A DNA stretch of 20,535 nt from a virus, in the IMG/VR virus record IMGVR_UViG_3300022202_000067, positions 1 through 20,535 of that record; one strand, written 5' to 3'. The position numbers and the translations under genes were made by a program. The notes below the pieces were generated by a model that was not told the DNA's origin, did not search any database, and saw only the letters and a list, made by a program, of their open reading frames with translations. Each line of letters starts with the position of its first letter. Position 1 is the stretch's first letter. Below are positions 8,335 through 20,535 of this stretch, piece after piece.

Positions 8335-9116
8335 TGGCTATTGCAGTAAAAACCATCGATGGTAAAATCGTTACTCCTGATGGAGTAGGGTGGGCTGGTG
8401 GTACTATTTATTTTAGTCTTAGTGTCCATGGTACAGTAGATGATGCTGGAACTGAGCAAATAGTAGCAGCTAATGGTGTTACTGTAATCCAATCTGATGG
8501 TTCTGTTGATTTTGATCTTATACCTAATGATATTATAACTCCTGCTGACACTGTATACATTGTAAAATTCTTTGCACCAGATGGAAGTCGAATGACGCAA
8601 CATTGGCGTATATTGACTACCGATCCTTCAACTATTAATATCGGTGATGTTACAAGAGTATTCTCTTCATCTGGTGCATATAGTGCGGGTACATTAGCGA
8701 ATCTATTAGATACTGATGTTACTGGTGTAAGTAATGATGAAGTACTTACTTGGAATTCAACTACTGAGAAATGGGAGCCAAAGCCAAGTAGTGGTGCTGG
8801 ATCTGATTCGGATGCCATCCATGATAACGTGGCAGGAGAGATTTTACTTGTCTCAGAGAAGTTAACTCCAGATAGCCTTGACCTTGTTCTAATTGAGGAT
8901 AGCGCAGCAGGACACGCAAAGAAACGCGTTAAAATGAGTAATCTACCTGGGGGCGCGCAAGCGGAATATACGACAGGTGGTAAACCCGCTGCAAATGCAT
9001 CAAATAAAAATACACCTTATGTTGTAAAAGACCCAGGAGAGCACGCACATGGTGAAATCATTTACGAACGTGATGATACTAGTTTCGCTTATTTTATTAC
9101 TTGGCGGCCCTTCTAG
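8334..9116 (+). CDS. Fibre-base-like protein: duplicated beta domain plus C-terminal extension
   Basis: This 260-residue protein has residues 1-105 paralogous to the whole preceding protein. Residues about 118-150 contain LANLLDTDVTGVSNDEVLTW followed by NSTTEKWEP, a motif common in phage tail fibre and collar-fibre proteins ('LxDtDvt...vLtwNstt.kW'). The C-terminal part ends AHGEIIYERDDTSFAYFITW, resembling the terminal strand of short fibre proteins, so the stop at 9116 looks authentic rather than a broken frame. ATG 8334 overlaps the previous stop by one base. The last 68 bases overlap the start of the next gene in a different frame. A role as fibre base or tail-tip protein is inferred. 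Confidence 0.82.
   Translation: MAIAVKTIDGKIVTPDGVGWAGGTIYFSLSVHGTVDDAGTEQIVAANGVTVIQSDGSVDFDLIPNDIITPADTVYIVKFFAPDGSRMTQHWRILTTDPSTINIGDVTRVFSSSGAYSAGTLANLLDTDVTGVSNDEVLTWNSTTEKWEPKPSSGAGSDSDAIHDNVAGEILLVSEKLTPDSLDLVLIEDSAAGHAKKRVKMSNLPGGAQAEYTTGGKPAANASNKNTPYVVKDPGEHAHGEIIYERDDTSFAYFITWRPF
8430..8459 (+). repeat. 30-base exact direct repeat, copy 2
   Basis: This is the second copy of the 30-base repeat at 8119-8148, in the same reading frame of the paralogous gene (GTVDDAGTEQ). The two copies are 311 bases apart. Confidence 0.9.
9035..9040 (+). promoter_or_regulatory. Ribosome-binding site AGGAGA inside upstream gene
   Basis: AGGAGA lies eight bases before ATG 9049, inside the coding region of the preceding gene. 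It supports 9049 as the real start of the giant fibre-like gene, and so supports its signal peptide. Confidence 0.7.
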
Positions 9117-12100
9117 CGCACAAAACCAAACAGGTCCTGTTCAAACCGTAGACGCGGTTCCGTCTGGGGCGTGTAACACCAAGATTGTTCTCAAGGTTGG
9201 TGGTGAAGCTGCCGCAGCAGATCAAGGAAAGACGTACTGCTGTACTGCCAGCACCTGGTCGCAATGTTGGGAGGTTGACGTATCAGCAGAACTTGCTGCT
9301 GCGTTAGCTGATGAAACAGGTTCTTCTGCGGACAGTTTTGTCGTGTTTAGCGATAGTCCAACCTTTGTTGGTTGGGATGATGGTGAGACTGTTTTTGAGT
9401 GGGATGATGGTGGAGGTCACCCACACGAAATCAAAATGCGGATGGACCACGATTGTTTTGGTGGTCTTTGTCCGACTGGTGGCGACCATTATGTCGTACT
9501 CGTATGGGAACCAGAGTATGACGGTGACACACTTCTAGACGTATCTGGATTTGCAATGGGAGACTTTCGAGGCGTAAATGCTGCTGGTGGTGCAGCCATC
9601 CTCCAGATACGCGATCCTACAGATTTGTACCCTGACCTAGCTCTTACAGGGACGAATGTTCTCACTGACGTTGTAACCTTTAATCGTGATCCGAATGACG
9701 ATTTGCAGATTCGAGTAAAGGGTGGTGATATCGGTCTTTTAGACGACAACCTCACTACGACTGGAACGATTACTGGGGAACAGATTACTTCAACTGATGA
9801 CGCTACAGTAACTGGTAAACTGACGTCCGGTGATGTGACCACCGGAGGACTGACCTCTACTGGTAACACTGATATCTACAACTTTCAAGGTAACTTGGCG
9901 AAGGATAACAGCGGTAATTTCTTGGAGTGGTTCGTCGGAAACTCGCGTAGTGTCTTGACCAACTATGGACGTTGGCCGACCGCCGAGCTAACGTGTAACA
10001 CTGGAGATTTCGCCTTGTCCGGCGACGATTGTACCGACTTGTTCAATTCGACGGGTCACTTCACATCGGATGTAGTTGATGCCGTGGGTTGTCCTGTACC
10101 CGGCCCTGGATGCGCACCGCAGTTAGAAGAGTTGGTGATCGTCGTCGGTGGCAATGACAACGGGCCGATTCATCCGAGCGATATCAACCATACAATTGGT
10201 AAGTGGTTCTGGCAAGCACGCTTCCACGGTTCTGAGTTTTACATACCTGACAATATGAAAGTCGAACTTCAGTATGACAACGATCTGGTGGGCGAGTCTG
10301 CTTGTTGCGACTCCGGAGGGACGGCCTGTACCTGGCAGACGGCGCAAGATGTTTCAGGATACCAAGCGAACGGTGACATTGAATCTCTTTTTCAATATAC
10401 TCTGACCAGTGATTTACCTAATTACCCTGCGGGAGCAGTTTCCGTTTGCGGTATCCGCTGGACATGGGGTGACTGGCGCTGTACTAATGGAGGTTCGTGC
10501 AACTTAGACAAGGTACGTCTCTCTGACATGACCTTCGGTTACTTCATGAATGAAACTCACGGCGAGTATCCACTGACGTATGATCCTGACAACCGTAACT
10601 TCATGCTCGACGCGATCGAATGGCTGGACGACAGCGGCACGCTTTACGGAGTGGAATTCAATACTACGGCAGATCAGTTTGAACTTGACGCAGGAGTTGT
10701 AGTAAAGAATAAAACCAATGCGGTTGAGAACTGGACTATCGAAGCACTTAACTCAATTGGATACGGAAATCTCGTCATTCAAGATACTACGGATAGTCCA
10801 GGCGGGGGTTACGTATGTATTGGTGACTGGGACGGCACCGCCAATAAGGACTGTGCAGACGCGGGTTTTCTTGGTCAGCTGAACCTTTTGTCAGGGCTAG
10901 GGTACGCCGAACTCGTTCTAGCTGATACGAATATGACAGGTAGAGTTACATTCAATGCCAGTTCTACAGGAGATTTGACGATAACTCCTATTGGTGGCGA
11001 CCTCAACATCCCTAACGCAACGCTAAATATTACTGGAACGGGGAGCATTGATCTCACCAGCAACGCACTTGTTGACGGAATTCTTGACTCTGGTGTCGCC
11101 ACGACCACCCACGCTACAGACGCTAATTTCCTCCAGCTACTGCGTCATGCCACCGATTGCACCGCTATCACCGACGGCAAAGACGGTGAGCTGTGCATCG
11201 AGGAGGACGATGACGCGTTGTACTCCTGCCAGGAGACTGGCGACGGTACCTGCAATACTCCGGGCGAGTGGATCTCTGTGGGTGGTGGCGGGTTTAGTCC
11301 CACCGATCTTGCTACCGATTATGGCACCGAGACAATTACGGACACTTGGACTATCCAATCACTGTTTAACTTCGATAGTGGTACCGAGGGTACGTTACGA
11401 CTCCCTACCAGTACGTCACTCCCCGGTACTTGCTCGATTGGTGACACCTACTACGACACTGATGGTGATACCGACGGTGAGTTGTACGTGTGTCGAGCAG
11501 CGAACACGTGGAAAGCAGTCGATGATGATGGTGGTGCGGGTGGGTTTGTTAGCTGGGACGTGACTGACACCGACGCCAGTCCGATTCTAACTGTTGATTC
11601 AACCGAGCAAGTTCAATTCATCGGTGCCGGTACTGTGACAGTATCTGCGGCTGCTGACGGTGCCAACCATGACGTAACAATAACTGGTTCAGAAACCAAC
11701 GATCTAGAGACTGACGGAGCCAACGGAATCGCAGACGAAGAAATCGTATGGGGTACCGGTACTGGGACAGCGGCCTATGGAAAGATTTCTACCCTTCCAG
11801 AAGAGCTTGCACCGGCAGCAGGAGATTGGTTACTTGCTGAAGATGATACCGGAGCACTTAACAAAATTGACGTAGGCGATCTCCCAGGTAGTGGTACAGT
11901 TGGAGGAAGTGGTAACGTTCAGTATAGTAATGGGGTGGGAGGCCACGACTCTGAAGCCGCGTTTAATTATACTCCTGGGACCAATACACTTGCGGCTGAT
12001 GTGTATACTTTTCCCGACGATAGCGTTGGTAAATTAGGTGTGATATCCTATAGTGTTGCAACCGATACCTATATGTATGGTAGTGCCGCTGACGCGATTT

Positions 12101-14097
12101 ATCCTACTGCGTTTGGTTCTAGAGGAGTGTCGTATCTCGAAGCAAACTACGTCCAAGATAAGGTGATTATCAAGAAACCATTCGTTACTGACGTTGGTAT
12201 CGGTGGCTCATTCTCGGATAGCGTAAAGGTTGATTCACCAGGAATACTTAGCGCATCGCATTTATCAACGGCATCGGCAGCCGGGACGACTTGTGCGACG
12301 GGCGCTGACCTTGAGAATCAAATCAATCGTTTCACGACAGTTGGCACCGGCACAGCGAATTATGCTCGCATGGAGTCGTGCGTCACGATTGAGGCAGGTT
12401 CTTTATTCACAGTTATCAACGACGACAGTAGCGGTAACGATACTCTCAACCTATGTCCTGCGACCGGTGGTGATATTGGAGCTGGGATTAATACGGCAAT
12501 CGAGGTCCCATATGGGATGGTGGCAATCTGCACTTGTCACAACACCGATACGTTTGCTTGCGCACTTGACTATTGGGAGGGGTCTGGACTTTCTGACGCA
12601 GAGATAAACGACTTGTCGGTTGCTGTCACTTGGGCTAATGTTCCCGATGCCAACGTGGACGGCGGCAACGAACGCGATGAGGTTCTGGTCGCTGCTGCTG
12701 GTGGTACGGATCTCACCTGTGCCGCTGGTGTGTGCAACGTGGACAGCCCGGTCACATCAGCGACCACCGCGACAACTGCGACGACTGCGAACAATTTAGC
12801 GTCTGCTGCACTTGATGCCACAGCGGAAATTGACGGTACACTTTGTGGCACCAACGAGATTCTTGAGGATCAGGGGGCGTCGTGGGTTTGCATCGCTACG
12901 CCTTCTGGCGGCGGTCATGGCGACGGGCTAAACTGCGCCGTTGGAGAGATCCCGTTGGGTGTAGATGCCAACGGTGCGGTGCAGGGTTGTTACGAACCGG
13001 CAGAGGCAGATATTACTGATCTTTCGCACTTTACGACTGGTGACGAGATTAATAACCTAAGTGTCGCCGTCACTTGGGCTAATGTTCCCGATGCGAATAT
13101 CAACGGTGGAAATGAGCGTGACGAGGTTCTAGTCGCCGCTGCCGGCGGTACGGATCTAACGTGCGCCGCAGGCGTTTGCAATGTAGACAGTCCAGTAACG
13201 TCGGCAACGACCGCTACAACGGCAACGACCGCTAACAACCTCGCCGCTGGCGCACTCGACGCAACGACTGAGATCGACGGGACTATGTGTGGCACCAACG
13301 AGATTCTTGAGGATCAAGGCGCGTCATGGGCTTGTATCACTACCCCGGCTGGCGGTTCTGAAACGAATACGCTGACCACCGTGCTTACCGGGATCGTAGA
13401 CGACCAGTTCGTCGTCGGCGGCGCAGGTGTGGCGACCTATGACACCGTGCCTGACTGCGATGCTGCTGGTGCCGCTCTGACCTACGACACGACTGCAAAC
13501 AATGTTGCCTGTGCAACGGACTTGGCTACCGATACGGAGCTTGCGGCGCAGGATGAGTGCAGTGAAATCACAGGCTGCGTCGTCAGTGCCATTACCGCAA
13601 CCGGCGTGACCTACGAGAACCTGAGCACCAACAGTGACATTGGGTTCGGCGCATCCCAGGTGCCGCAGGGTTCGCTCACTGCACCATTGGCAAGTCCGGC
13701 TTTAACTGGTACGCCTACAGCACCGACTGCATCGAGTGGTGACAGCGACACGAGCATTGCCACAACTGACTTTGTTGACCGGCGTACGCAGCATCAGTGC
13801 AAGACCGTTGAAAGTCTCGTAGCTGCGGATGACAACATAATAATGGACGTATTCCGACAAGCCGTAACGATCACCGCAGTTGCGTGCGAATCCAGTGCAG
13901 CCGCGACAGTGGTGCTTGAAGACTATGGTGGTACAGCCATCGAGACTATTGTCTGTAACACCGATGGTTCACTCACTTGGGATATTTCAATGTCAGGTAC
14001 GGCAACACTGATAGCAGGAGAAGTTATGCGGATGGACACCACATCGGAGTCAACGCCGACCTGGACGATGATTTGCTGGGAGTGGACGAATGACTAA
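9049..14097 (+). CDS. Giant exported fibre/adhesin-like protein, cysteine-rich
   Basis: This 1682-residue mosaic protein resembles a tail fibre but begins with a textbook Sec signal peptide: basic MVKSFTN, hydrophobic VMILVSLILLLGG, then PSSA before Q25 as a likely cleavage site. AGGAGA eight bases upstream supports this start. I count about 48 cysteines, often in close pairs (for example YCC, TCSIGD...YVC), which suggests disulfides. Low-complexity Thr/Gly/Asp strands fill most of it (residues about 240-270 have T-G-x-I-T-style repeats). Residues 1186-1289 and 1334-1437 are near-identical repeats. Residues about 1545-1577 (LASPALTGTPTAPTASSGDS, then SIATTDFVD) match the tail fibre repeat of lambda Stf type (Phage_fiber_2). 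No intramolecular chaperone or peptidase domain is visible. GC content is higher than in upstream genes. It could be a receptor-binding fibre or a phage-encoded adhesin on the host surface; the signal peptide favours the latter. Confidence 0.85.
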   Translation: MVKSFTNVMILVSLILLLGGPSSAQNQTGPVQTVDAVPSGACNTKIVLKVGGEAAAADQGKTYCCTASTWSQCWEVDVSAELAAALADETGSSADSFVVFSDSPTFVGWDDGETVFEWDDGGGHPHEIKMRMDHDCFGGLCPTGGDHYVVLVWEPEYDGDTLLDVSGFAMGDFRGVNAAGGAAILQIRDPTDLYPDLALTGTNVLTDVVTFNRDPNDDLQIRVKGGDIGLLDDNLTTTGTITGEQITSTDDATVTGKLTSGDVTTGGLTSTGNTDIYNFQGNLAKDNSGNFLEWFVGNSRSVLTNYGRWPTAELTCNTGDFALSGDDCTDLFNSTGHFTSDVVDAVGCPVPGPGCAPQLEELVIVVGGNDNGPIHPSDINHTIGKWFWQARFHGSEFYIPDNMKVELQYDNDLVGESACCDSGGTACTWQTAQDVSGYQANGDIESLFQYTLTSDLPNYPAGAVSVCGIRWTWGDWRCTNGGSCNLDKVRLSDMTFGYFMNETHGEYPLTYDPDNRNFMLDAIEWLDDSGTLYGVEFNTTADQFELDAGVVVKNKTNAVENWTIEALNSIGYGNLVIQDTTDSPGGGYVCIGDWDGTANKDCADAGFLGQLNLLSGLGYAELVLADTNMTGRVTFNASSTGDLTITPIGGDLNIPNATLNITGTGSIDLTSNALVDGILDSGVATTTHATDANFLQLLRHATDCTAITDGKDGELCIEEDDDALYSCQETGDGTCNTPGEWISVGGGGFSPTDLATDYGTETITDTWTIQSLFNFDSGTEGTLRLPTSTSLPGTCSIGDTYYDTDGDTDGELYVCRAANTWKAVDDDGGAGGFVSWDVTDTDASPILTVDSTEQVQFIGAGTVTVSAAADGANHDVTITGSETNDLETDGANGIADEEIVWGTGTGTAAYGKISTLPEELAPAAGDWLLAEDDTGALNKIDVGDLPGSGTVGGSGNVQYSNGVGGHDSEAAFNYTPGTNTLAADVYTFPDDSVGKLGVISYSVATDTYMYGSAADAIYPTAFGSRGVSYLEANYVQDKVIIKKPFVTDVGIGGSFSDSVKVDSPGILSASHLSTASAAGTTCATGADLENQINRFTTVGTGTANYARMESCVTIEAGSLFTVINDDSSGNDTLNLCPATGGDIGAGINTAIEVPYGMVAICTCHNTDTFACALDYWEGSGLSDAEINDLSVAVTWANVPDANVDGGNERDEVLVAAAGGTDLTCAAGVCNVDSPVTSATTATTATTANNLASAALDATAEIDGTLCGTNEILEDQGASWVCIATPSGGGHGDGLNCAVGEIPLGVDANGAVQGCYEPAEADITDLSHFTTGDEINNLSVAVTWANVPDANINGGNERDEVLVAAAGGTDLTCAAGVCNVDSPVTSATTATTATTANNLAAGALDATTEIDGTMCGTNEILEDQGASWACITTPAGGSETNTLTTVLTGIVDDQFVVGGAGVATYDTVPDCDAAGAALTYDTTANNVACATDLATDTELAAQDECSEITGCVVSAITATGVTYENLSTNSDIGFGASQVPQGSLTAPLASPALTGTPTAPTASSGDSDTSIATTDFVDRRTQHQCKTVESLVAADDNIIMDVFRQAVTITAVACESSAAATVVLEDYGGTAIETIVCNTDGSLTWDISMSGTATLIAGEVMRMDTTSESTPTWTMICWEWTND
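12604..12915 (+). repeat. In-frame 104-codon repeat, copy 1
   Basis: Residues 1186-1289 of the giant fibre-like protein. They share about 93 of 104 residues with copy 2 (13048-13359), including VTWANVPDAN, LTCAAGVCNVDSPVTSATTA and CGTNEILEDQGASW. By my hand count 56 codons differ synonymously and about 11 non-synonymously. Each copy carries four cysteines at equal positions. Confidence 0.9.
13048..13359 (+). repeat. In-frame 104-codon repeat, copy 2
   Basis: Residues 1334-1437 of the giant fibre-like protein. This is the second copy of the 104-codon repeat at 12604-12915, separated from it by a 44-residue linker with its own cysteine pair (LNCAVG...QGC). Confidence 0.9.
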
Positions 14098-14662
14098 GCG
14101 AATCCTGGCAGTCCTGCTGCTGGCGTGTTCGCCCGCGCTGGCCGACACCTACTACCTACGCGACACCACGGGTGAGGCGTGCGGTTCGGGTACTCGGCGC
14201 GATCTCAGTACAACGGCAGGCACGGCAACGCTCACCACCAGTATCGTATCGGCGACGACCTGGAACATCGTTCCCGGAGCGGGCGACTACGCCTCGGGAA
14301 CGTGGACGAACAACATCAAGGTGCAGGTCGGCAGCGGCGGCGGGCCTGCAAATCGCGTGACCTGTACTGTCGCCCGCTATAACAGCGGTTGCACGTTGCA
14401 GGAAACGATGGTGAGTGCGGAGTCAGGCACCATGACCAAGGGCACCGTCTGTGGTACCGATGCTGAGAGCATCAATACGACCGGGTCGCCGGGCGCTGTG
14501 ACGTTTGCCGCAACCGACATTCTAGTCATCGAATGCTCACGCACGAACGGCAACAAGTCCATTGATACCTGCTACGACGGCAATAGCGGGGACTACAATT
14601 CGAATCTGACGACGCCAACATTCACCCCTGCCGCAGCAGGGCGTTCGCGGCGGATGTTTTGA
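14090..14662 (+). CDS. Small exported beta-rich protein with signal peptide
   Basis: This 190-residue protein starts at ATG inside an 8-base overlap with the giant gene (ATGACTAA), with GGGAG at 14078-14082 seven bases upstream. MTKRILAVLLLACSPALA is a clear Sec signal peptide with an ALA cleavage site before D19. LLAC could alternatively act as a weak lipobox, making a lipoprotein. The mature part is Thr/Gly/Ser-rich and beta-rich (TWNNIKVQVGSGGG at about 72-85) with six cysteines, in keeping with folding outside the cytoplasm. It ends in a short basic tail RSRRMF. GC is high: 40 of 60 bases in 14161-14220. I do not recognise the family. It is probably co-expressed with the giant exported protein and may be a partner or companion surface protein. 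Confidence 0.8.
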   Translation: MTKRILAVLLLACSPALADTYYLRDTTGEACGSGTRRDLSTTAGTATLTTSIVSATTWNIVPGAGDYASGTWTNNIKVQVGSGGGPANRVTCTVARYNSGCTLQETMVSAESGTMTKGTVCGTDAESINTTGSPGAVTFAATDILVIECSRTNGNKSIDTCYDGNSGDYNSNLTTPTFTPAAAGRSRRMF

Positions 14663-14970
14663 GTTATCGTAAACAGCGGCTTACTGGATATATGAGTGCT
14701 TTCGCTGTGATGGTCGGAGTCACTATGGGCGGTGTATTTTCAACCTACGTTGATCGCACCAGCCCAATAAATTCTAACCCCGCGTTTATAGAACGTCCAC
14801 CCATCGAAAATATGAGATGCCCAGTTTGTAGTTCGCCAAAGTCTGATCCGTTCGATGGTGACCGCATGTATCTAAAAAATCCAAACGGACCTGATCCTCG
14901 CGTGATGTTCTGTAAGAATAAACATACGTGGCGTGGAGATACAGGTGAACAGATTAGACTCGTTCCGTAA
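14659..14970 (+). CDS. Membrane-anchored small protein with zinc-ribbon-like motif
   Basis: This 103-residue protein starts at a TTG overlapping the previous stop by four bases (TTGA), the same junction type as at 4135. ATG at 14692 is an alternative, but the TTG start supplies the basic segment RKQR before the hydrophobic segment at about 12-31, as expected for a membrane anchor or uncleaved signal. After a proline-rich linker comes C54-P-V-C57 and then C85-x3-H89, a spacing that could bind one zinc ion. The stretch between them is rich in Asp, Pro and Asn. GC falls again relative to the preceding gene. The function is unknown. Its place as last gene of the tail operon and its membrane anchor would suit a host-takeover or exclusion factor, but this is inference only. 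Confidence 0.65.
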   Translation: MSYRKQRLTGYMSAFAVMVGVTMGGVFSTYVDRTSPINSNPAFIERPPIENMRCPVCSSPKSDPFDGDRMYLKNPNGPDPRVMFCKNKHTWRGDTGEQIRLVP

Positions 14971-14980
14971 TTTGAAGAAT

Positions 14981-15071
14981 GGAAGCACCGGGCTCTGCTG
15001 ACCTACCCGGCGGGACACGGTCTTGAGTTTACCCCCTCTTCTCAAGATCGGTTACAAAGCCCGGTGCCTCC
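14981..15071. repeat. Long inverted repeat with internal hairpin, possible terminator
   Basis: The arms 14981-14994 and 15058-15071 are complementary at 13 of 14 positions, with a perfect ten-base core GCACCGGGCT / AGCCCGGTGC. The one mismatch is A-C in plus-strand RNA and G-U in minus-strand RNA. Inside lies a second stem, 15018-15027 with 15041-15050, enclosing a 13-base pyrimidine-rich loop. It sits 10 bases past the end of the plus-strand operon. No long T run follows directly; the nearest is TTTTT at 15092-15096. A terminator is likely from position, but the branched shape could also be a structured RNA. Confidence 0.7.
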
Positions 15072-15215: not shown

Positions 15216-15604
15216 GAGCCATTTTTCGGTTCAGAAGCGTCGGGTGTCCTCCACTCCTTGTTTTCTTTTAAACGGATGCGTGTTTGCTTACCGAAGTCTT
15301 TAACTTCCATTGAAGGGAAGTGATTATGTACTTGCAATAGTTCAGTGTTTTCAATGTAAAGATAGAAACGTTGCTCTCTTGATACTAAGGCTTTAATAAA
15401 CCCTTCTAAGATCACGGATCTGGTCTTTAGATTAGTGATCATTCCTCGTTTATCATCGAGTAACAGTATGTATGATTCAATGCGCACCTTACTATCTTTG
15501 AGTTGTTCTTTTAGTGAGTCTATATCTTCATTCAGTTTATAGACCAAGTTGATTTTTGTGAGTTGCGACAGAACTCTTATAACTTTTCTAATCCACTCAC
15601 GCAT
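15182..15604 (-). CDS. Coiled-coil protein at end of replication operon
   Basis: This 140-residue protein is of unknown function. Its ATG overlaps the primase stop by eight bases, with GGAGG (15611-15615) six bases upstream. Residues 1-22 form an amphipathic basic helix (REWIRKVIRVL). Residues about 23-78 are a charged heptad-like coiled coil (KLNEDIDSLKEQLKDSK and on), followed by a short mixed region with FYLYIENTELLQV. The tail (about 110-140) is polar and probably disordered, and is partly encoded by the right arm of an inverted repeat. No cysteine or membrane span is present. Following a primase-helicase suggests a replication accessory role, such as a helicase-loader or scaffold-like helper, but nothing specific can be recognised. 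Confidence 0.7.
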   Translation of the reverse strand: MREWIRKVIRVLSQLTKINLVYKLNEDIDSLKEQLKDSKVRIESYILLLDDKRGMITNLKTRSVILEGFIKALVSREQRFYLYIENTELLQVHNHFPSMEVKDFGKQTRIRLKENKEWRTPDASEPKNGSVGRSLTPEPS

Positions 15605-17687
15605 TAGCTTCCTCCCTCTTCTTCTTACGTTTCTTACGTTTGATCCGTAAACGCTTTCTATTCAGTAGCTCTGGATCTTCGTATACCGATGAGCCCGTTA
15701 TACACTTCCGAATATAGTCACTTAAAGACCAACTAAAGCGGGACTTGGAACCCACCCGAGTGACTATCTCCAGAAGGTTAAAGTTAGCCATGAGCCGTGA
15801 TACTGTAGCTGTGGGATACCTTGTACCAATTGCGATATCTCTGGTACCTATTGAATCATCTTCATGTGGACACTCTTTCCACATGTACCGAATGATATCT
15901 TCTACTCGTTGTGGAAGTGTGTCCAGCACCACTTTCTGAATGATTCGTAGATCGGTATCATTAACTTCATTTCGATCATCAACCATAGCCAGCGACATAG
16001 CCAACTTAGCAAGTTGCTTTCCGAGTCTTGATCCAACTTCCGCAGATGGTCTACCCTCGACCATATCAGGTCGGTATCTATCACGCGCAATGGACGCTCT
16101 CGCTCTTGCTCCCAGTTTTGCCAAAGCGATGATAGTACCCAGGATTTTACTCGGTATCTGAGGTTTGGTTGTACCGTTTCGTTGCATGAACGATTGGACA
16201 ACGTCTTCCATTTCTGAACGCATTTCAGTTTCGATATTAACGTTGGAAATTGCCTTTGCGATAATTTCGTCTTCACTGAAATGGCGTAAATTATCTGCGA
16301 CACAGAACTTAAGAAAGCGTTCTCCGAGTGAAGCACTCTTGGAACCTTCGCTGTAAATTGCTGGTGTGACAGCAGCAAGTATTGAGAATCGGCTATCATA
16401 TCTACGGACAATGCCGTTGCCAAAAACCTTACCGCAGCTTCCGTCGTATGCGTCCCTAAGAATCCCAAAGATTTCATCCTTCTCATTATCACGCATCTCC
16501 ATGATTGTAGTAAAGTCCTTTATTATCAACACTTTACCATCCAACTTAGGAATCAATGATGGATCTACACCGTTCCGAAAATGGAATCCACTAATCAAAC
16601 TGCGCGATGTGAGTGATGAAGTTATATACGTTTTCCTTGTCCTATTAAACGCAGAGAGTGTGGCTGTTTTAGAACCTCCTGGGGGTGCGACAAAGAACAT
16701 CCAAATTGGGTCACCATCTAATCGGTTGGACAATACTGTGGCTAGTGCAACTCGGATACCGTCTGTATCACTTAAGTGGAGCCATTTTTTGAAGACCTTT
16801 TGGACCTGCGTAAATGATGCAGGTTTCTTGTACGCACTTTTCGTGGAAACGTCGGAGTCCTCATCATCGCCCGAGAGACGCGGTTCTCCCACAAAGAGCG
16901 TTTGGAATTTTTTGAGACCTGTCTTCGGTTTCTTTTTATTGTACCACTCAACGACCCAATCGCGGACGTCAGTTCCATCACTGCTTTCTTCAGGGAATCT
17001 AAGGAAGTGGAGAGTGCGACACTTATCATGGAGTTTCTTGAAGGTTTTGAGTTCACCTTGCGCTCCTGCTTCGTCGTTATCGTAACATAAATAGACGTCT
17101 CTATTCTCGAACCACTCTACCCATTCATCCCGAAATGTACCAGCACCGGGAGTCGCTACAACAATACCACTCTTACCACATTTACGCAACAACCATTGGA
17201 GCGCAATAGCGTCCCATTCACCTTCGCAAACGTAGATGGGTTTGTTAGGGTGCGCTCGCGCCATCTTTTCAGCACCAAGCAACCCTGGCTTACACCCTTT
17301 AGTTGTCCATACACCATGAACCTTAGGTCGCCAATAGCGGATATCAATAACTTTACCTTCTCGGTTCCGAACGGGAATGGTGTATTTCCCTGCCCCATAG
17401 CCTACACCCCAGAAATCAAACGCTTCTTCGGGTAGACCTCTATTCTTTGCCAGTTTAGGAAGTCTACCGCTCGCATTGAGTTCGGAAATAGCTTCAAGAA
17501 ACTGATAAAGATTTCCCTTGAGATTAGCAGTTTTACTATCCCATAAGAGAGTTTTTTTATTGACGTAGAACTTACTAGATTTGTCAGTGAATGGACACCG
17601 ACCATAATATTGAGATGTGGATTCGCCCTCGAACTCTACGCCGTGTAATTCAAAGGCGCGTACATTACTGTCCTTCGGGAGTTTCAC
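15597..17687 (-). CDS. TOPRIM primase fused to P-loop ATPase (primase-helicase)
   Basis: This 696-residue replication enzyme starts with GTG; GGAG (17695-17698) lies seven bases upstream and the start overlaps the 76-residue gene by 23 bases. Residues 31-65 align with the CHC2 zinc ribbon of DnaG-type primases (CPFTDKSSKFYV against CPFHxEKxPSFxV), but the His is Thr and the CFxC pair is absent, so zinc binding is probably lost. The TOPRIM core follows: CEGEWDA (E155, D159) and CYDNDEAG (D203, D205), the metal-binding acids for RNA primer synthesis. Residues 325-465 form a P-loop ATPase: APPGGSKT (334-341) as a non-standard Walker A, VLIIKDF (D391) as Walker B, and R457 of GERF as possible arginine finger. 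This is not the DnaB/T7-type helicase. A winged-helix-like region lies at about 590-660, and an extremely basic tail at 677-691. It is expected to prime and unwind at the phage fork with the neighbouring polymerase. Confidence 0.85.
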   Translation of the reverse strand: MKLPKDSNVRAFELHGVEFEGESTSQYYGRCPFTDKSSKFYVNKKTLLWDSKTANLKGNLYQFLEAISELNASGRLPKLAKNRGLPEEAFDFWGVGYGAGKYTIPVRNREGKVIDIRYWRPKVHGVWTTKGCKPGLLGAEKMARAHPNKPIYVCEGEWDAIALQWLLRKCGKSGIVVATPGAGTFRDEWVEWFENRDVYLCYDNDEAGAQGELKTFKKLHDKCRTLHFLRFPEESSDGTDVRDWVVEWYNKKKPKTGLKKFQTLFVGEPRLSGDDEDSDVSTKSAYKKPASFTQVQKVFKKWLHLSDTDGIRVALATVLSNRLDGDPIWMFFVAPPGGSKTATLSAFNRTRKTYITSSLTSRSLISGFHFRNGVDPSLIPKLDGKVLIIKDFTTIMEMRDNEKDEIFGILRDAYDGSCGKVFGNGIVRRYDSRFSILAAVTPAIYSEGSKSASLGERFLKFCVADNLRHFSEDEIIAKAISNVNIETEMRSEMEDVVQSFMQRNGTTKPQIPSKILGTIIALAKLGARARASIARDRYRPDMVEGRPSAEVGSRLGKQLAKLAMSLAMVDDRNEVNDTDLRIIQKVVLDTLPQRVEDIIRYMWKECPHEDDSIGTRDIAIGTRYPTATVSRLMANFNLLEIVTRVGSKSRFSWSLSDYIRKCITGSSVYEDPELLNRKRLRIKRKKRKKKREEANA

Positions 17688-17895
17688 AGGACAACTCCAC
17701 TAATCCAGCTTCCGTTATATTAAATCTTTCCTCCAAAGGGTTTTTAGTAATGATTATAGTATTTCTAGGATCATTACCAACTCTATGCAACCAATCCACA
17801 AAGTTGAAAATGTCAGATTGGCACGCCGCTGTTAGATAGGTTGGAACTGTAAACTCTTTTTTCTTCTTACCGTCACGGATTAAGACCGCTCTCAT
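17665..17895 (-). CDS. Small unknown protein between polymerase and primase
   Basis: This 76-residue protein has its ATG overlapping the polymerase stop by four bases (ATGA) and a GGAGG (17900-17904) four bases upstream; its end overlaps the primase start by 23 bases. That packing supports a real gene. It opens with a strand and a basic turn (RDGKKKKEFTV), then a helix-rich middle with FNFVDWLHRVGNDPRNTIII, and an acidic tail. No motif is recognisable. It could be a small accessory factor for the polymerase or primase, by position only. Confidence 0.7.
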   Translation of the reverse strand: MRAVLIRDGKKKKEFTVPTYLTAACQSDIFNFVDWLHRVGNDPRNTIIITKNPLEERFNITEAGLVELSCETPEGQ

Positions 17896-19811
17896 GCGAC
17901 CTCCAGTTCTATCTCTTTGGTCTTATGCCATCTTGTACGGCATATCTTAACTCCGACAGGTAATTTCTGTGGGAGTTGAAGGGGCTCTCCTGCACGTTGC
18001 ATACAGGTAATGAGATCGCGCATTAAACGCTTACAGTGGTAATGTAACGGGAGTTCAATAATCTGCTCATCATGGAGTGACATTAACTGTCTAGCCTCCG
18101 GCCATTTCTCCTTTAGTACAGAATGAACGTTAATCAATGCTTCTTTCTGAACGTCTGCTGCTGTTCCTTGAACCAAGTAGTTCACCGCTTTGTAGGTGTA
18201 ATCAGGGTGCACATATGAATGACGTCCATAGACGTTACTGACAAAACCATCTTTTCTTGCTCTGTTACCTAATCGGTGAATGTATTGTTCGATGTTCCCG
18301 AGTCTCTGCATATAGGCATCTTTATACTTCTTCGCTTGTTCATGCGAGCACGGAACAGTTTGTGACAACTTCTTGATGCCTCCTCCATACAACGTTTGAA
18401 AGATAATGAGTTTTCCACATTTCCGATAGTAGACCAGTCGATCCTCATAATCCGGTTCATCACCAAATACGATCTTTCCGATCTCACCATGAAAGTCTCC
18501 ACCACCCATGAGTACATCTAGCATCTTTTGATTCTTAGACACCATAGCGAAAATCCATACTTCCAACTGACCGAAATCAGGGAGATACCACATATGTCCT
18601 GGTCGTGGACCTAATGTTTCGCGTGGTTTGAGAGCCACGTTAGATCGCCTACGTCCCGTTGTCTCTGAAGCTACGTTCATTAAGTTGGGATCATGTGATG
18701 ATAGTCTACCAGTAATAGCACCTATACCTCTAATTTGAGGGTGTAATATATACACACCATCTTCTAACACCATATGCTGTCTATAGGTTTTGATAAACCC
18801 ATTGACCGCCCGCCTCGCATTTGACCATTCTAGGATAGCACGACAGAGGGGGTCTGGATTTTCTTTCTCAGCATGAAATTGTAAGAAGTGTCCACTGACC
18901 TGAGGCTGTCCGTTTGGAAATTTCTTCGATGGTTGGGTCATCCTCTGAACTTCAAGACCACGCTTCTCAACAAGTTCTTTAATTTTCTGTGGACCGCTAT
19001 TGGGATTGAACCCTTTGTACGCTTCCTTGCGTATGACACGTTCCTGCTTCTTAATGTAGTCATTATAGTACTTTGCTAACCGATCTACATGGTTTGGGAA
19101 TACTCGCATCCCCGCAAACTCCATGGTCTTGATCGGTCCATCATACAGTGCAGTCTCTCTATCAAACACCGCTTTATACTTTGCGTTTTTAGCTACCTTT
19201 GGTGCCAGTAGCATATATAGAAGCATGGTTCGTTCGGCATCTTGAACCGCATATCTCTTACAGAGTTCAGGATCCGCTAACCAATAATCCGCAAAGTGTG
19301 GTTTCTTACCGAAGTGCTCCTCTGTAGCAATACACCAACCTTTGTTCTTAGCGATTTGTCTTGCAGCTTTTGTACTAGCTTCTAACTGCTCCTGGTCATC
19401 CTTGGGGAATCCAAACCATTTCTCCCCCAGAAATTTCAGATCGTACCTAAACTCATTTCCATGCGTTACAATGTGCGCCATTAGAAGAGTATCTAATATG
19501 GGTCCACGGATTGTAAAACCTGCATGGATTAACTGCTTGTAATCAAACGGAGCGTGGTGTAGTACTTTAATGGTGTTAGGATCACCAAGTATTTGTTGTA
19601 CCTTTTTAAAGGTTTTGGGTTTTCTTTTGTAAAGTACTTCACGGGTAAAAGGATCTACTTTGAAGCGAGCATATCCTGTAGTTTCATCATCCCAACACCA
19701 ACTGATAGCAAACGGTCTTGCTGGGTGAAATAAACCACCTTTAGACGCATTATCCCAGGGTATGAGACCTGTTGTCTCCGTATCGACCGCTATGACTTTA
19801 TGTTCACTCAT
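17892..19811 (-). CDS. polA: Family A DNA polymerase with 3'-5' exonuclease
   Basis: This is a phage replicative DNA polymerase of the Pol I family, 639 residues from ATG 19811. A TTG at 19844 would add 11 residues, but neither start has a clear ribosome-binding site, and ATG 19811 overlaps the preceding membrane-peptide stop by eight bases, the same overlap length as two other junctions here. Exonuclease motifs are complete: DTETTG (D10, E12), HHAPFDY (D90) and YAVQD (Y187, D191), so proofreading should be active. Polymerase motifs: TGRLSS (367-372) with PNLMN; motif A as DFGQLEVW (D412, E417) in place of the common DYSQIELR; motif B RKCGKLIIFQTLYGG (K467, F471, Y475); motif C HDE (580-582). 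The position equal to E. coli F762 is Phe. There is no 5'-3' exonuclease domain. It ends with a four-base overlap into the 76-residue gene. Confidence 0.93.
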   Translation of the reverse strand: MSEHKVIAVDTETTGLIPWDNASKGGLFHPARPFAISWCWDDETTGYARFKVDPFTREVLYKRKPKTFKKVQQILGDPNTIKVLHHAPFDYKQLIHAGFTIRGPILDTLLMAHIVTHGNEFRYDLKFLGEKWFGFPKDDQEQLEASTKAARQIAKNKGWCIATEEHFGKKPHFADYWLADPELCKRYAVQDAERTMLLYMLLAPKVAKNAKYKAVFDRETALYDGPIKTMEFAGMRVFPNHVDRLAKYYNDYIKKQERVIRKEAYKGFNPNSGPQKIKELVEKRGLEVQRMTQPSKKFPNGQPQVSGHFLQFHAEKENPDPLCRAILEWSNARRAVNGFIKTYRQHMVLEDGVYILHPQIRGIGAITGRLSSHDPNLMNVASETTGRRRSNVALKPRETLGPRPGHMWYLPDFGQLEVWIFAMVSKNQKMLDVLMGGGDFHGEIGKIVFGDEPDYEDRLVYYRKCGKLIIFQTLYGGGIKKLSQTVPCSHEQAKKYKDAYMQRLGNIEQYIHRLGNRARKDGFVSNVYGRHSYVHPDYTYKAVNYLVQGTAADVQKEALINVHSVLKEKWPEARQLMSLHDEQIIELPLHYHCKRLMRDLITCMQRAGEPLQLPQKLPVGVKICRTRWHKTKEIELEVA

Positions 19812-19923
19812 TATTTTTAGAGTTAATAACGCCAAGTCGTACAATAATTGATAGCGCTATTCCAAGAATAACTGCTGCTCCTGTTATTGCACCAAAGAAA
19901 AACGTAGCCCAATTGAAGTCCAT
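19804..19923 (-). CDS. 39-residue single-span membrane peptide
   Basis: This short gene encodes 39 residues: MDFNWATFFFG, then a hydrophobic helix about 7-33 with an Ala/Gly/Ile-rich core (GAITGAAVILGIALSIIV), then RLGVINSKNNE. It would span the inner membrane once, with a positively charged end at R29 and K36. A perfect AGGAGG (19929-19934) lies five bases before the ATG, overlapping the methyltransferase stop. The stop overlaps polymerase ATG 19811 by eight bases. The packing, very strong ribosome-binding site and clear amphiphilic design support a real gene. The function is unknown: it could be a membrane tether for replication, a small host-interfering peptide, or a holin-like peptide, though it is not near lysis genes. 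Confidence 0.7.
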   Translation of the reverse strand: MDFNWATFFFGAITGAAVILGIALSIIVRLGVINSKNNE

Positions 19924-19928
19924 TACTC

Positions 19929-19934
19929 CCTCCT
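19929..19934 (-). promoter_or_regulatory. Consensus ribosome-binding site AGGAGG
   Basis: AGGAGG lies five bases upstream of the ATG at 19923 on the minus strand and overlaps the last codon of the methyltransferase. It is the best-formed ribosome-binding site I see in the window and is the main support for the 39-residue gene. Confidence 0.75.
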
Positions 19935-20535
19935 ACCAGGATGCGTGAATGGTTGAAATCTTATTCGCACTCATTTGCTGTTCATTTGAATAGTCACGTA
20001 TTTTCATTCCTACGCAAATGAATAATGCTTCAATTGCTTGACGCTTACGGACACCGTGGCATTCCACGATAACGTGATCGATCTTCTTTAAGTGGTCAGT
20101 TATTTCTGGAAGGATTACAGTTTCAAATCCTTCACAATCAATTTTCAGTAGTCGGATTCTTCTACCAGCACGTGATAGTACCGTATGAATTCTAGTATTG
20201 GCGCTTACTAGAGTGATCTCCTGGTGATGGTTGTCCTTCTTAGGGTCGAGGAACGGACCAATACCTAATCCAAACGACCTAGTCGCCCTACCCATAATAT
20301 CCTTTTTCTCATACGTATTCGATAAACCAACGTTCTTGATTGAAAAACGCACTCCGTTCAATCTCGCATTCTTGACGGCGAGTTTGAAAAGAACTGGGTG
20401 AGGTTCAAAAGCAAAGACCTTCGCTGCTCCGTGGAGTCCGAATAGGATCATGGTGTCACCGATATATGCACCAATGTCAATGACATACTCACCTTTGATA
20501 CCAATCTCATCTAGGAGTGGTCCGTAGATATCATC
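19933..20535 (-). CDS. FkbM-family SAM-dependent methyltransferase (5' end outside window)
   Basis: Two hundred residues are visible, and the frame is open to the window edge; the first ATG (20451) is internal because motif I lies before it. The visible part begins DDIYGPLLDEIGIKGEYVID. VIDIGAYIGDT (18-28) is the SAM-binding motif I, FAFEPHP (41-47) the acidic loop that holds the ribose of SAM, and LLKIDCEGFE (129-138) the FkbM hallmark KIDxEGxE. IDHVIVECHG (152-161) fits the following strand. FkbM enzymes usually O-methylate sugars or other small or surface molecules. It ends nine bases before the membrane-peptide gene and shares its stop region with that gene's ribosome-binding site, so it belongs to the replication operon. 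The substrate cannot be told. Host glycan or phage-surface modification is plausible; DNA is not the usual substrate for this family. Confidence 0.85.
   Translation of the reverse strand, partial: DDIYGPLLDEIGIKGEYVIDIGAYIGDTMILFGLHGAAKVFAFEPHPVLFKLAVKNARLNGVRFSIKNVGLSNTYEKKDIMGRATRSFGLGIGPFLDPKKDNHHQEITLVSANTRIHTVLSRAGRRIRLLKIDCEGFETVILPEITDHLKKIDHVIVECHGVRKRQAIEALFICVGMKIRDYSNEQQMSANKISTIHASW

Follow-up and report, generated by a model that had tools for sequence, protein, structure and literature searches.

The stretch of DNA analyzed here, referred to as the window, comprises positions 1 to 20,535 (20,535 nucleotides) of the IMG/VR virus record IMGVR_UViG_3300022202_000067. Its minus strand carries an open reading frame (ORF) with a GTG start at 17687 and a stop codon ending at 15597, which encodes a protein of 696 amino acids (aa) with an N-terminal primase half and a C-terminal motor half. 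A first-pass annotation made from the sequence alone had located this ORF correctly and described its product as a primase with a degenerate zinc ribbon and a non-standard P-loop ATPase. The gene is a real member of a family of phage primase-motor fusions. Its product is probably the primase-helicase of a tailed phage carrying a family A DNA polymerase (PolA), combining a folded ribbon that is in use despite lacking zinc ligands with an MCM-like AAA+ ring motor in place of a RecA ring. The gene and its primase half were delimited as follows:

15597..17687, minus: whole gene, fusion of a TOPRIM primase with an MCM-like AAA+ motor, 696 aa (ORF list, translation, predicted structure)
17472..17618, minus: ribbon domain without zinc ligands, residues 24-72, ligand sites C31, T34, S51 and A54 (alignments, model)
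17238..17462, minus: N-terminal part of the primase catalytic domain, residues 76-150 (matches T7 primase jointly with TOPRIM)
16902..17237, minus: TOPRIM domain, residues 151-262, with E155, D203 and D205 (Toprim_2 above cutoff)
16821..16901, minus: variable linker, residues 263-289 (linker lengths in 123 rows)

The primase-motor family and its ribbon domain

A first search for relatives with the whole primase-motor protein found none; a short motor query was successful and returned 10 loci in IMG/VR. Using an alignment of nine full-length proteins as query, 93 related viral loci (80 kept) and nine loci on genome contigs were obtained. Further queries represented the C-terminal part of the motor (80 kept of 101 loci) and the primase alone (80 kept of 145 loci), and the combined pool contains 123 distinct family rows, fragments included. 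Among the genome-contig loci, one in a planctomycete metagenome-assembled genome (MAG) matched across nearly the whole protein. In the other eight, from bacterial and archaeal MAGs, the match started only at about residue 282, and the primase part was not found in the DNA available for these eight loci and for two viral loci. For this reason, motor relatives may also exist on their own, unfused to a primase. When the whole protein was compared by tblastn with 50,697 phage records, 47 records matched, all below 60% identity and none spanning 80% of the query, and the 40 rows listed were confined to residues 30-294. The motor yielded chance-level tblastn matches only (best E about 2) against phages and plasmids, and searching 294 genomes of a single phylum with the motor gave one match, in the starting genome. 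Within the databases searched, the family is chiefly viral. No earlier description of it was found in the literature searched, which left aside doi 10.1093/nar/gkw322 (a 2016 survey of replication proteins of dsDNA viruses) and PMC5052118 (a 2016 paper on Cch).

The N-terminal half is a TOPRIM primase of the T7 gp4/DnaG type in which the primase catalytic fold is present. Toprim_2 (Pfam) passes its cutoff in the window protein (28 versus 22.1 bits), all PHROG matches are confined to the primase half, and model residues 6-266 matched the T7 primase (1nui_B) with Z 17.4 and a root-mean-square deviation (rmsd) of 2.9 over 185 aligned residues. The Pfam profile of the DnaG zinc ribbon remained below threshold at residues 23-84 (19 bits, cutoff 24.9). 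The four ligands typical of the zinc ribbon of DnaG-type primases are not all present in the window protein, while the sequence around the ligand sites is retained, including the segment CPFTDKSSKFYV (residues 31-42), which had been recognized as the ribbon start and is present in the translation. In the model, the ribbon forms strands at residues 40-43, 49-51 and 56-58, within a block with predicted local distance difference test (pLDDT) values of 87-92.

The ribbon was readable in 118 of the 123 rows (five are without the region). All four cysteines are intact in 72 rows and ligands are lost in 46, the window protein among them. Three or four ligands are missing in 45 of these zinc-less rows and a single one in the remaining row, L044. 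The residues at the four sites read CTSA in 23 rows and CSSA in 11, with ten rarer patterns accounting for 12; Cys31 is retained in 40 rows, and the other sites are mostly occupied by Thr or Ser (position 34, 44 rows), Ser (position 51, 39 rows) and Ala (position 54, 35 rows). Hence the recurring substitutions are Thr or Ser for the second cysteine, Ser for the third and Ala for the fourth. Furthermore, F33, N43, W49 and G58 are invariant in all 37 zinc-less rows of the first set. The reported absence of the second cysteine pair was borne out, since sites 51 and 54 read Ser and Ala in the window protein. The proposed replacement of His by Thr at the second ligand was not: the lost residue was most likely a cysteine, judging from the 72 of 72 intact family rows with Cys at this site, and His was found there in two more distant cultured-phage primases, those of BSP7 and THSA-485A. 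The close relatives L039 (CSSA) and L044 (CSCC) have ribbons diverging more than the remainder of the protein, possibly a half-way state or an exchange.

In order to evaluate how often ligands were lost, unrooted trees were built without the ribbon columns. Six duplicates, the partial rows L011, L012, L091 and L092 and the motor-only rows L094-L101 were taken out before the first alignment (74 rows), and L040, L041 and L042 before the first tree (71 rows). The second tree (115 rows) comprised the pool except eight rows with a gapped ribbon or a length below 600 aa, and the third (95 rows) was obtained after removal of 20 near relatives. The fewest changes of ligand state on the best trees were four (71 rows), five (115 rows), six (95 rows) and five (48 rows). 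Approximately unbiased (AU) tests were conducted on 48 chosen rows under LG+G4 with a quick search, for groups A to D named after the trees had been seen. A single clade was rejected for all zinc-less rows (p 4.8e-8), for A+B (3.0e-7), A+D (8.3e-5) and A+B+C (1.9e-5), and was not rejected for B+C (p 0.30) or A alone (p 0.26). Because the groups were named with the trees in view, the safe number suggested by these sequences is three or more separate changes, without any claim to an exact count. Zinc ribbons are general in DnaG-type primases; the changes are therefore taken as losses rather than gains of ligands. Homologues with intact ligands, which the first-pass annotation had regarded as a possible sign of a sequence error, do exist (the 72 rows), but the loss is common to 46 of 118 rows and of more than one origin, and is thus not an error in the window sequence.

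Moreover, selection on the zinc-less ribbon was estimated from nine chosen close pairs, one of which (L039/L044) includes the row with a single ligand lost. The ratio of nonsynonymous to synonymous substitution rates (dN/dS) was lowest in the ribbon (0.092) and the AAA+ core (0.093), followed by TOPRIM (0.104), the lid with the winged helix (0.121), the linker (0.175) and the region ahead of TOPRIM (0.195), all of these being rough values as synonymous differences are near saturation. Three zinc-bearing control pairs were too saturated for a ribbon value. In seven of these pairs, the proportion of nonsynonymous differences (pN) was lower in the ribbon than elsewhere in the protein. TOPRIM residues E155, D203 and D205 are retained in 46 of 46 zinc-less rows. 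Since these acidic residues are kept and the zinc-less ribbon evolves at the slow pace of the AAA+ core, error or decay is an unlikely cause of the ligand loss, and the zinc-less ribbon seems to be still in use. Plant Twinkle is described as reading its template with its zinc finger domain (PMC10557236), and animal Twinkle as having altered cysteines and other primase motifs and no priming (PMC3610141). The simplest reading of the sequence data is that the metal-free ribbon does the template-reading job. Some ribosomal proteins occur in zinc-binding and zinc-free forms that share a fold, an analogy that would suit a primase having given up its metal.

The motor half

The following features were assigned to the motor half:

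16248..16820, minus: predicted AAA+ core, residues 290-480 (motor model, fold searches)
16665..16685, minus: Walker A, PPGGSKT, residues 335-341 (Lys in all 120 covering rows)
16509..16532, minus: Walker B with Lys-Asp, VLIIKDFT, residues 386-393 (row counts; register from profile alignment)
16395..16439, minus: predicted beta-hairpin preceding sensor 1, residues 417-431 (both models show two strands)
16362..16379, minus: sensor 1, LAAVTP, residues 437-442, Thr replacing Asn (aligned with LVSATNP of ComM-type proteins)
16311..16328, minus: putative arginine finger, LGERFL, residues 454-459, by inferred role (Arg in 122 of 122 rows)
15708..15911, minus: predicted winged helix, residues 593-660 (both models; collinear with the MCM winged helix in the profile alignment)
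15600..15683, minus: basic tail, residues 669-696, net charge +8, not conserved (charge count over tails)

AlphaFold2 modelled the whole protein with pLDDT 83 and a predicted template modelling score (pTM) of 0.57, and the motor alone (38 sequences) with pLDDT 91 and pTM 0.90. Searching Foldseek with the motor model, the best 50 of 171 rows (E up to 0.001) were all MCM chains (best E 1.5e-11). Likewise, all 50 rows listed by VIA were MCM chains, the best with Z 20.1 and rmsd 4.3 over 277 aligned residues. In a viral structure library, the nearest structures were two uncharacterized proteins of uncultured phages (template modelling scores 0.84 and 0.82). Whole-protein Foldseek matches included BchI (E 4.7e-6), and as fold lists show only the highest-ranked matches, kinship of the predicted fold with other AAA+ proteins such as BchI may exist. 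The predicted structure marks the motor as MCM-like and as belonging to the AAA+ class in which a hairpin precedes sensor 1.

Sequence profiles place the motor less firmly, with weak to moderate alignments to MCM, ComM-type proteins and DUF3987. Pfam gave only chance-level matches on the motor of the window protein (DUF7627, E 0.17; DUF3987, E 0.19, 11.3 of 27 bits). MCM was absent from the window protein at E up to 10 and from the families listed for 38 motor members (E ≤0.01), and DUF927 was not listed for the window protein (E up to 10). The matches of these 38 members comprised winged-helix families (MarR_2 in four, HTH_IclR in three) and otherwise weak single or double ones, e.g., AAA_5 in two, and PHROGs returned three weak matches to motor members, one member each. 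The alignment program hhalign detected no match to four DnaB proteins (probability 0.6) and a weak one to DUF3987 (probability 52), possibly reflecting distant kinship. On control proteins, the hidden Markov model of the motor scored 7.3 bits at best. The linker between TOPRIM and the AAA+ core has a median length of 31 aa and a maximum of 49 (123 rows) and is therefore too short to accommodate the MCM N-terminal domain. The motor is accordingly outside MCM membership, with no Pfam profile match, no N-terminal OB/zinc domain, and atypical Walker B and sensor 1 residues.

These residues are highly uniform within the family. Both motor motifs named by the first-pass annotation, APPGGSKT (residues 334-341) and IIKDF (residues 388-392), are present in the translation. 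Among the 122 rows covering Walker B, Lys is found in 119 and Asp in all, and sensor 1 has Thr in 122 of 122 covering rows. In the profile alignment, LIIKDF aligns with LFLDEF of ComM-type proteins, which places Lys390 at the position of the Walker B Asp and Asp391 at that of the catalytic Glu; this register rests on the profile alignment and on predicted strand ends. Lys-Asp is present in 72 of 74 rows of the first set (two read Thr-Asp), in 28 of 28 covering rows among 29 new ones from the C-terminal motor query, and in 19 of 20 new rows from the primase search (one reads Gln-Asp). That its conservation is an artefact of searching with a KDF pattern was ruled out by loci found with other patterns. 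The same KDF Walker B was observed in L094-L101, the motor relatives without a primase half in contigs of planctomycete, Dehalococcoidia, Omnitrophota and archaeal MAGs.

Thus, the earlier view of the motor largely held: no profile search put it into the DnaB/RecA family, the model matches MCM AAA+ helicases, the winged-helix-like end is seen in the model, and a little-described type of primase-motor protein is supported. The very basic tail is present in the window protein and is not a family feature, a net charge of at least +6 being found in 42 of 123 tails.

Genomic setting and neighbouring replication genes

Upstream of the primase-motor gene, two further ORFs were recorded:

17665..17895, minus: ORF of 76 aa between PolA and the primase-motor gene, no Pfam match (ORF list, Pfam)
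17892..19844, minus: DNA polymerase A with 3'-5' exonuclease domain, 650 aa (ORF list, Pfam)

Hence, the replication block on the minus strand consists, in order, of PolA with its exonuclease, the 76-aa ORF and the primase-motor gene. The plus strand encodes a phage tail protein (PhageMin_Tail, Pfam), and the sign of the GC skew switches near position 15,000, where the coding direction also flips. A DNA-level search of the virus's own record revealed no copy beyond the primase-motor gene itself. A complete PolA ORF is present in the loci of 105 of 122 relatives in addition to the window. It is upstream of the primase-motor gene and codirectional with it in each of these 105 loci, at a distance of at most 500 bases in 88 loci and at most 1000 in 99 (maximum 2126). 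Helicases and PolA were counted in 38 larger phage records among the 80 kept loci (L014-L089), the near-identical pairs L026/L027 and L035/L043 included. DNA_pol_A was detected in all 38 and DnaB_C in none of them. By comparison, a survey of PolA neighbours in marine viruses names gp4, DnaB, SNF2, RecB, RecA and UvrD helicases, and the word "MCM" is absent from its main text (PMC6302109). The median PolA length was 700 aa in 43 zinc-less loci and 619.5 aa in 62 others; a tie between zinc loss and a longer PolA was dropped, as only four independent pairs lie on supported branches and PolA length is mostly the same within them.

Elsewhere in the window, a 1682-aa ORF (9049-14097, plus) has a GC content above that of the rest and no Pfam match at E ≤0.05. 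A 103-aa ORF (14659-14970, plus) with a CPVC motif and a later Cys appears zinc-ribbon-like by eye and has no Pfam match. An FkbM-type methyltransferase gene (19933-20535, minus) upstream of PolA is truncated by the window end.

Interpretation and comparison with known systems

The preferred interpretation, which we consider likely, is a primase-helicase with a zinc-less ribbon in use and an MCM-like ring motor. It is from sequence and predicted structure that we infer, rather than observe, the absence of bound zinc, priming, ring formation, DNA unwinding and ATP hydrolysis despite the Lys-Asp Walker B. In the proposed mechanism, the metal-free ribbon would read the single-stranded DNA template and most likely also hold the primer, and the TOPRIM site would make short primers for the neighbouring PolA. 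The AAA+ subunits would assemble into a ring in which the hairpin drives the DNA, with the winged helix assisting at the origin or fork. Unwinding probably proceeds 3' to 5', by analogy with MCM and Cch. Such a ring would sit on the leading-strand template, and the tethered primase would have to reach to the displaced lagging strand, unlike in T7.

Several observations weigh against this interpretation. In hhalign comparisons, the motor matched ComM-type proteins more strongly (probability 83, 110 columns) than archaeal MCM, where a collinear alignment of 296 columns, spanning Walker A through the winged helix, reached a probability of only 21; for the MCM motors of three cultured phages the probability was 0.6. 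Walker B (Lys-Asp versus Asp-Glu) and sensor 1 (Thr versus Asn) do not carry the residues of MCM. The ribbon pN equals that of the rest in the pair L035/L075 and is higher in L039/L044 (0.231 versus 0.108), whose ligand sets differ. Furthermore, a superfamily 2 (SF2) helicase that could unwind the fork (Helicase_C; one per record) is encoded beside the fusion in 34 of the 38 records.

The last observation leads to an alternative that we regard as unlikely, namely that fork unwinding falls to the SF2 helicase, with the MCM-like AAA+ motor acting in origin opening or replisome remodelling and the primase half working as usual. The frequent SF2 gene and the atypical Walker B and sensor 1 in nearly all rows speak for this division of labour; on the other hand, the motor is well conserved, it is also primase-fused in rows retrieved by the primase alone, and DnaB_C is missing from the 38 records. 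SF2 proteins of such size may, moreover, serve recombination or repair.

It appears improbable that the ligand-free ribbon is vestigial and the primase inactive, the situation in animal Twinkle, leaving only the motor to matter. Zinc ligands are thought necessary for T7-type priming, and animal Twinkle is described as having lost both its cysteines and its priming (PMC3610141). This is opposed by the complete retention of the TOPRIM acidic residues, by the low dN/dS of TOPRIM and ribbon, and by identical replacements recurring in groups separated by the AU tests. Even less probable, and in our opinion quite doubtful, is a ribbon still holding metal through Cys31 together with other residues or a partner protein, so that the need for zinc was altered and not lost. 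The common retention of Cys31 and the three of four ligands kept in L044 would agree with it, but the remaining three sites are mostly Thr/Ser, Ser and Ala, which are poor zinc binders, and no new conserved Cys or His occurs at ribbon positions 9-71 (37 zinc-less rows) except His15, which precedes the ribbon and is also common in zinc-bearing rows. That the protein is simply a T7 gp4-like primase of the ordinary kind, with a RecA/DnaB motor and local damage to its ribbon, is scarcely credible: the whole-protein Foldseek search did rank human Twinkle first (E 8.1e-10, rmsd 15.7) and VIA did list a pair of longer T7 gp4 chains (Z 18.4 with rmsd 15.2, and Z 17.9 with rmsd 18.3), but these are long alignments at very high rmsd, an rmsd of 2.9 is reached with only the T7 primase part, the motor alone matches MCM and not the four DnaB proteins, and the ligand loss is shared and repeated.

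A more far-reaching version of the primase-helicase interpretation is put forward only tentatively: an active DnaG-type primase, independent of zinc, fused to a 3'-5' MCM-like ring running on a Lys-Asp Walker B. If true, the primase would ride a ring on the strand opposite to that of T7 gp4 and DnaB, and priming of the lagging strand would require an arrangement resembling that of eukaryotic CMG with Pol alpha, in a single phage polypeptide. Repeated zinc loss would then indicate that a template-reading ribbon needs shape and not metal. When a primase lacks its zinc cysteines, as animal Twinkle does, the usual conclusion is that priming has been lost. In this family, closely related phage primases occur both with and without zinc ligands and share the same conserved active-site residues, which makes the need for zinc in template reading directly testable. 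Moreover, the motor is encoded downstream of PolA and may represent a ring of a polarity opposite to that of the standard T7-like replisome.

T7 gp4 and Twinkle resemble the window protein in the fusion of a primase to a motor, in operating with or beside a family A polymerase and in the matched T7 primase fold. They differ in having a RecA-type motor instead of an MCM-like AAA+ motor, and unlike animal Twinkle the family described here lost zinc ligands yet keeps the TOPRIM residues. Archaeal and eukaryotic MCM share with the window motor the predicted AAA+ fold, the hairpin ahead of sensor 1 and the terminal winged helix, whereas the window motor has no N-terminal domain, a Lys-Asp Walker B, Thr in sensor 1 and no Pfam MCM match. 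In mobile elements, fusions of AEP primases with MCM, DUF927, DUF3987 or VirE motors are described (PMC5862659). They have in common with the window protein that a non-DnaB AAA+ motor carrying a winged helix is attached to a primase, which is AEP there and of the DnaG/TOPRIM type here.

The closest parallels are found in cultured phages. Arthrobacter phage Wollypog gp50, Bacillus phage BSP7_045 and Microbacterium phage Sparcetus gp51 have, like the window protein, a TOPRIM primase followed by an MCM-type P-loop domain; relative to the Pfam MCM cutoff of 23.3 bits, they score 24.0, 27.7 and 22.3 (just below), respectively. Their primases are strongly homologous to that of the window protein (hhalign probability 99.5-99.8). 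They differ in their length of about 960-984 aa versus 696, in motors that do not align with the window motor (hhalign 0.6), and in ribbons that retain zinc-ligand-like residues. The primase/helicase of Thermoanaerobacterium phage THSA-485A (CHC2, DUF927 and Cch winged helix) likewise joins a DnaG-type primase to a motor of an MCM-like family, but its ribbon retains the CHC2 ligands and its motor is DUF927. For the primase halves of all four cultured-phage fusions, hhalign probabilities were 99.3-99.8. The staphylococcal DUF927 protein Cch is described as close to MCM, and both are spoken of as 3'-5' (PMC7581432); the Cch-type motor family is described as MCM-like and helicase-active (PMC7581432, PMC5862659). 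Fusion of TOPRIM primases to MCM or DUF927 motors in cultured phages is thus already known, and what is new here is a motor group unnamed in Pfam and PHROGs, joined to a primase that seems to manage without zinc.

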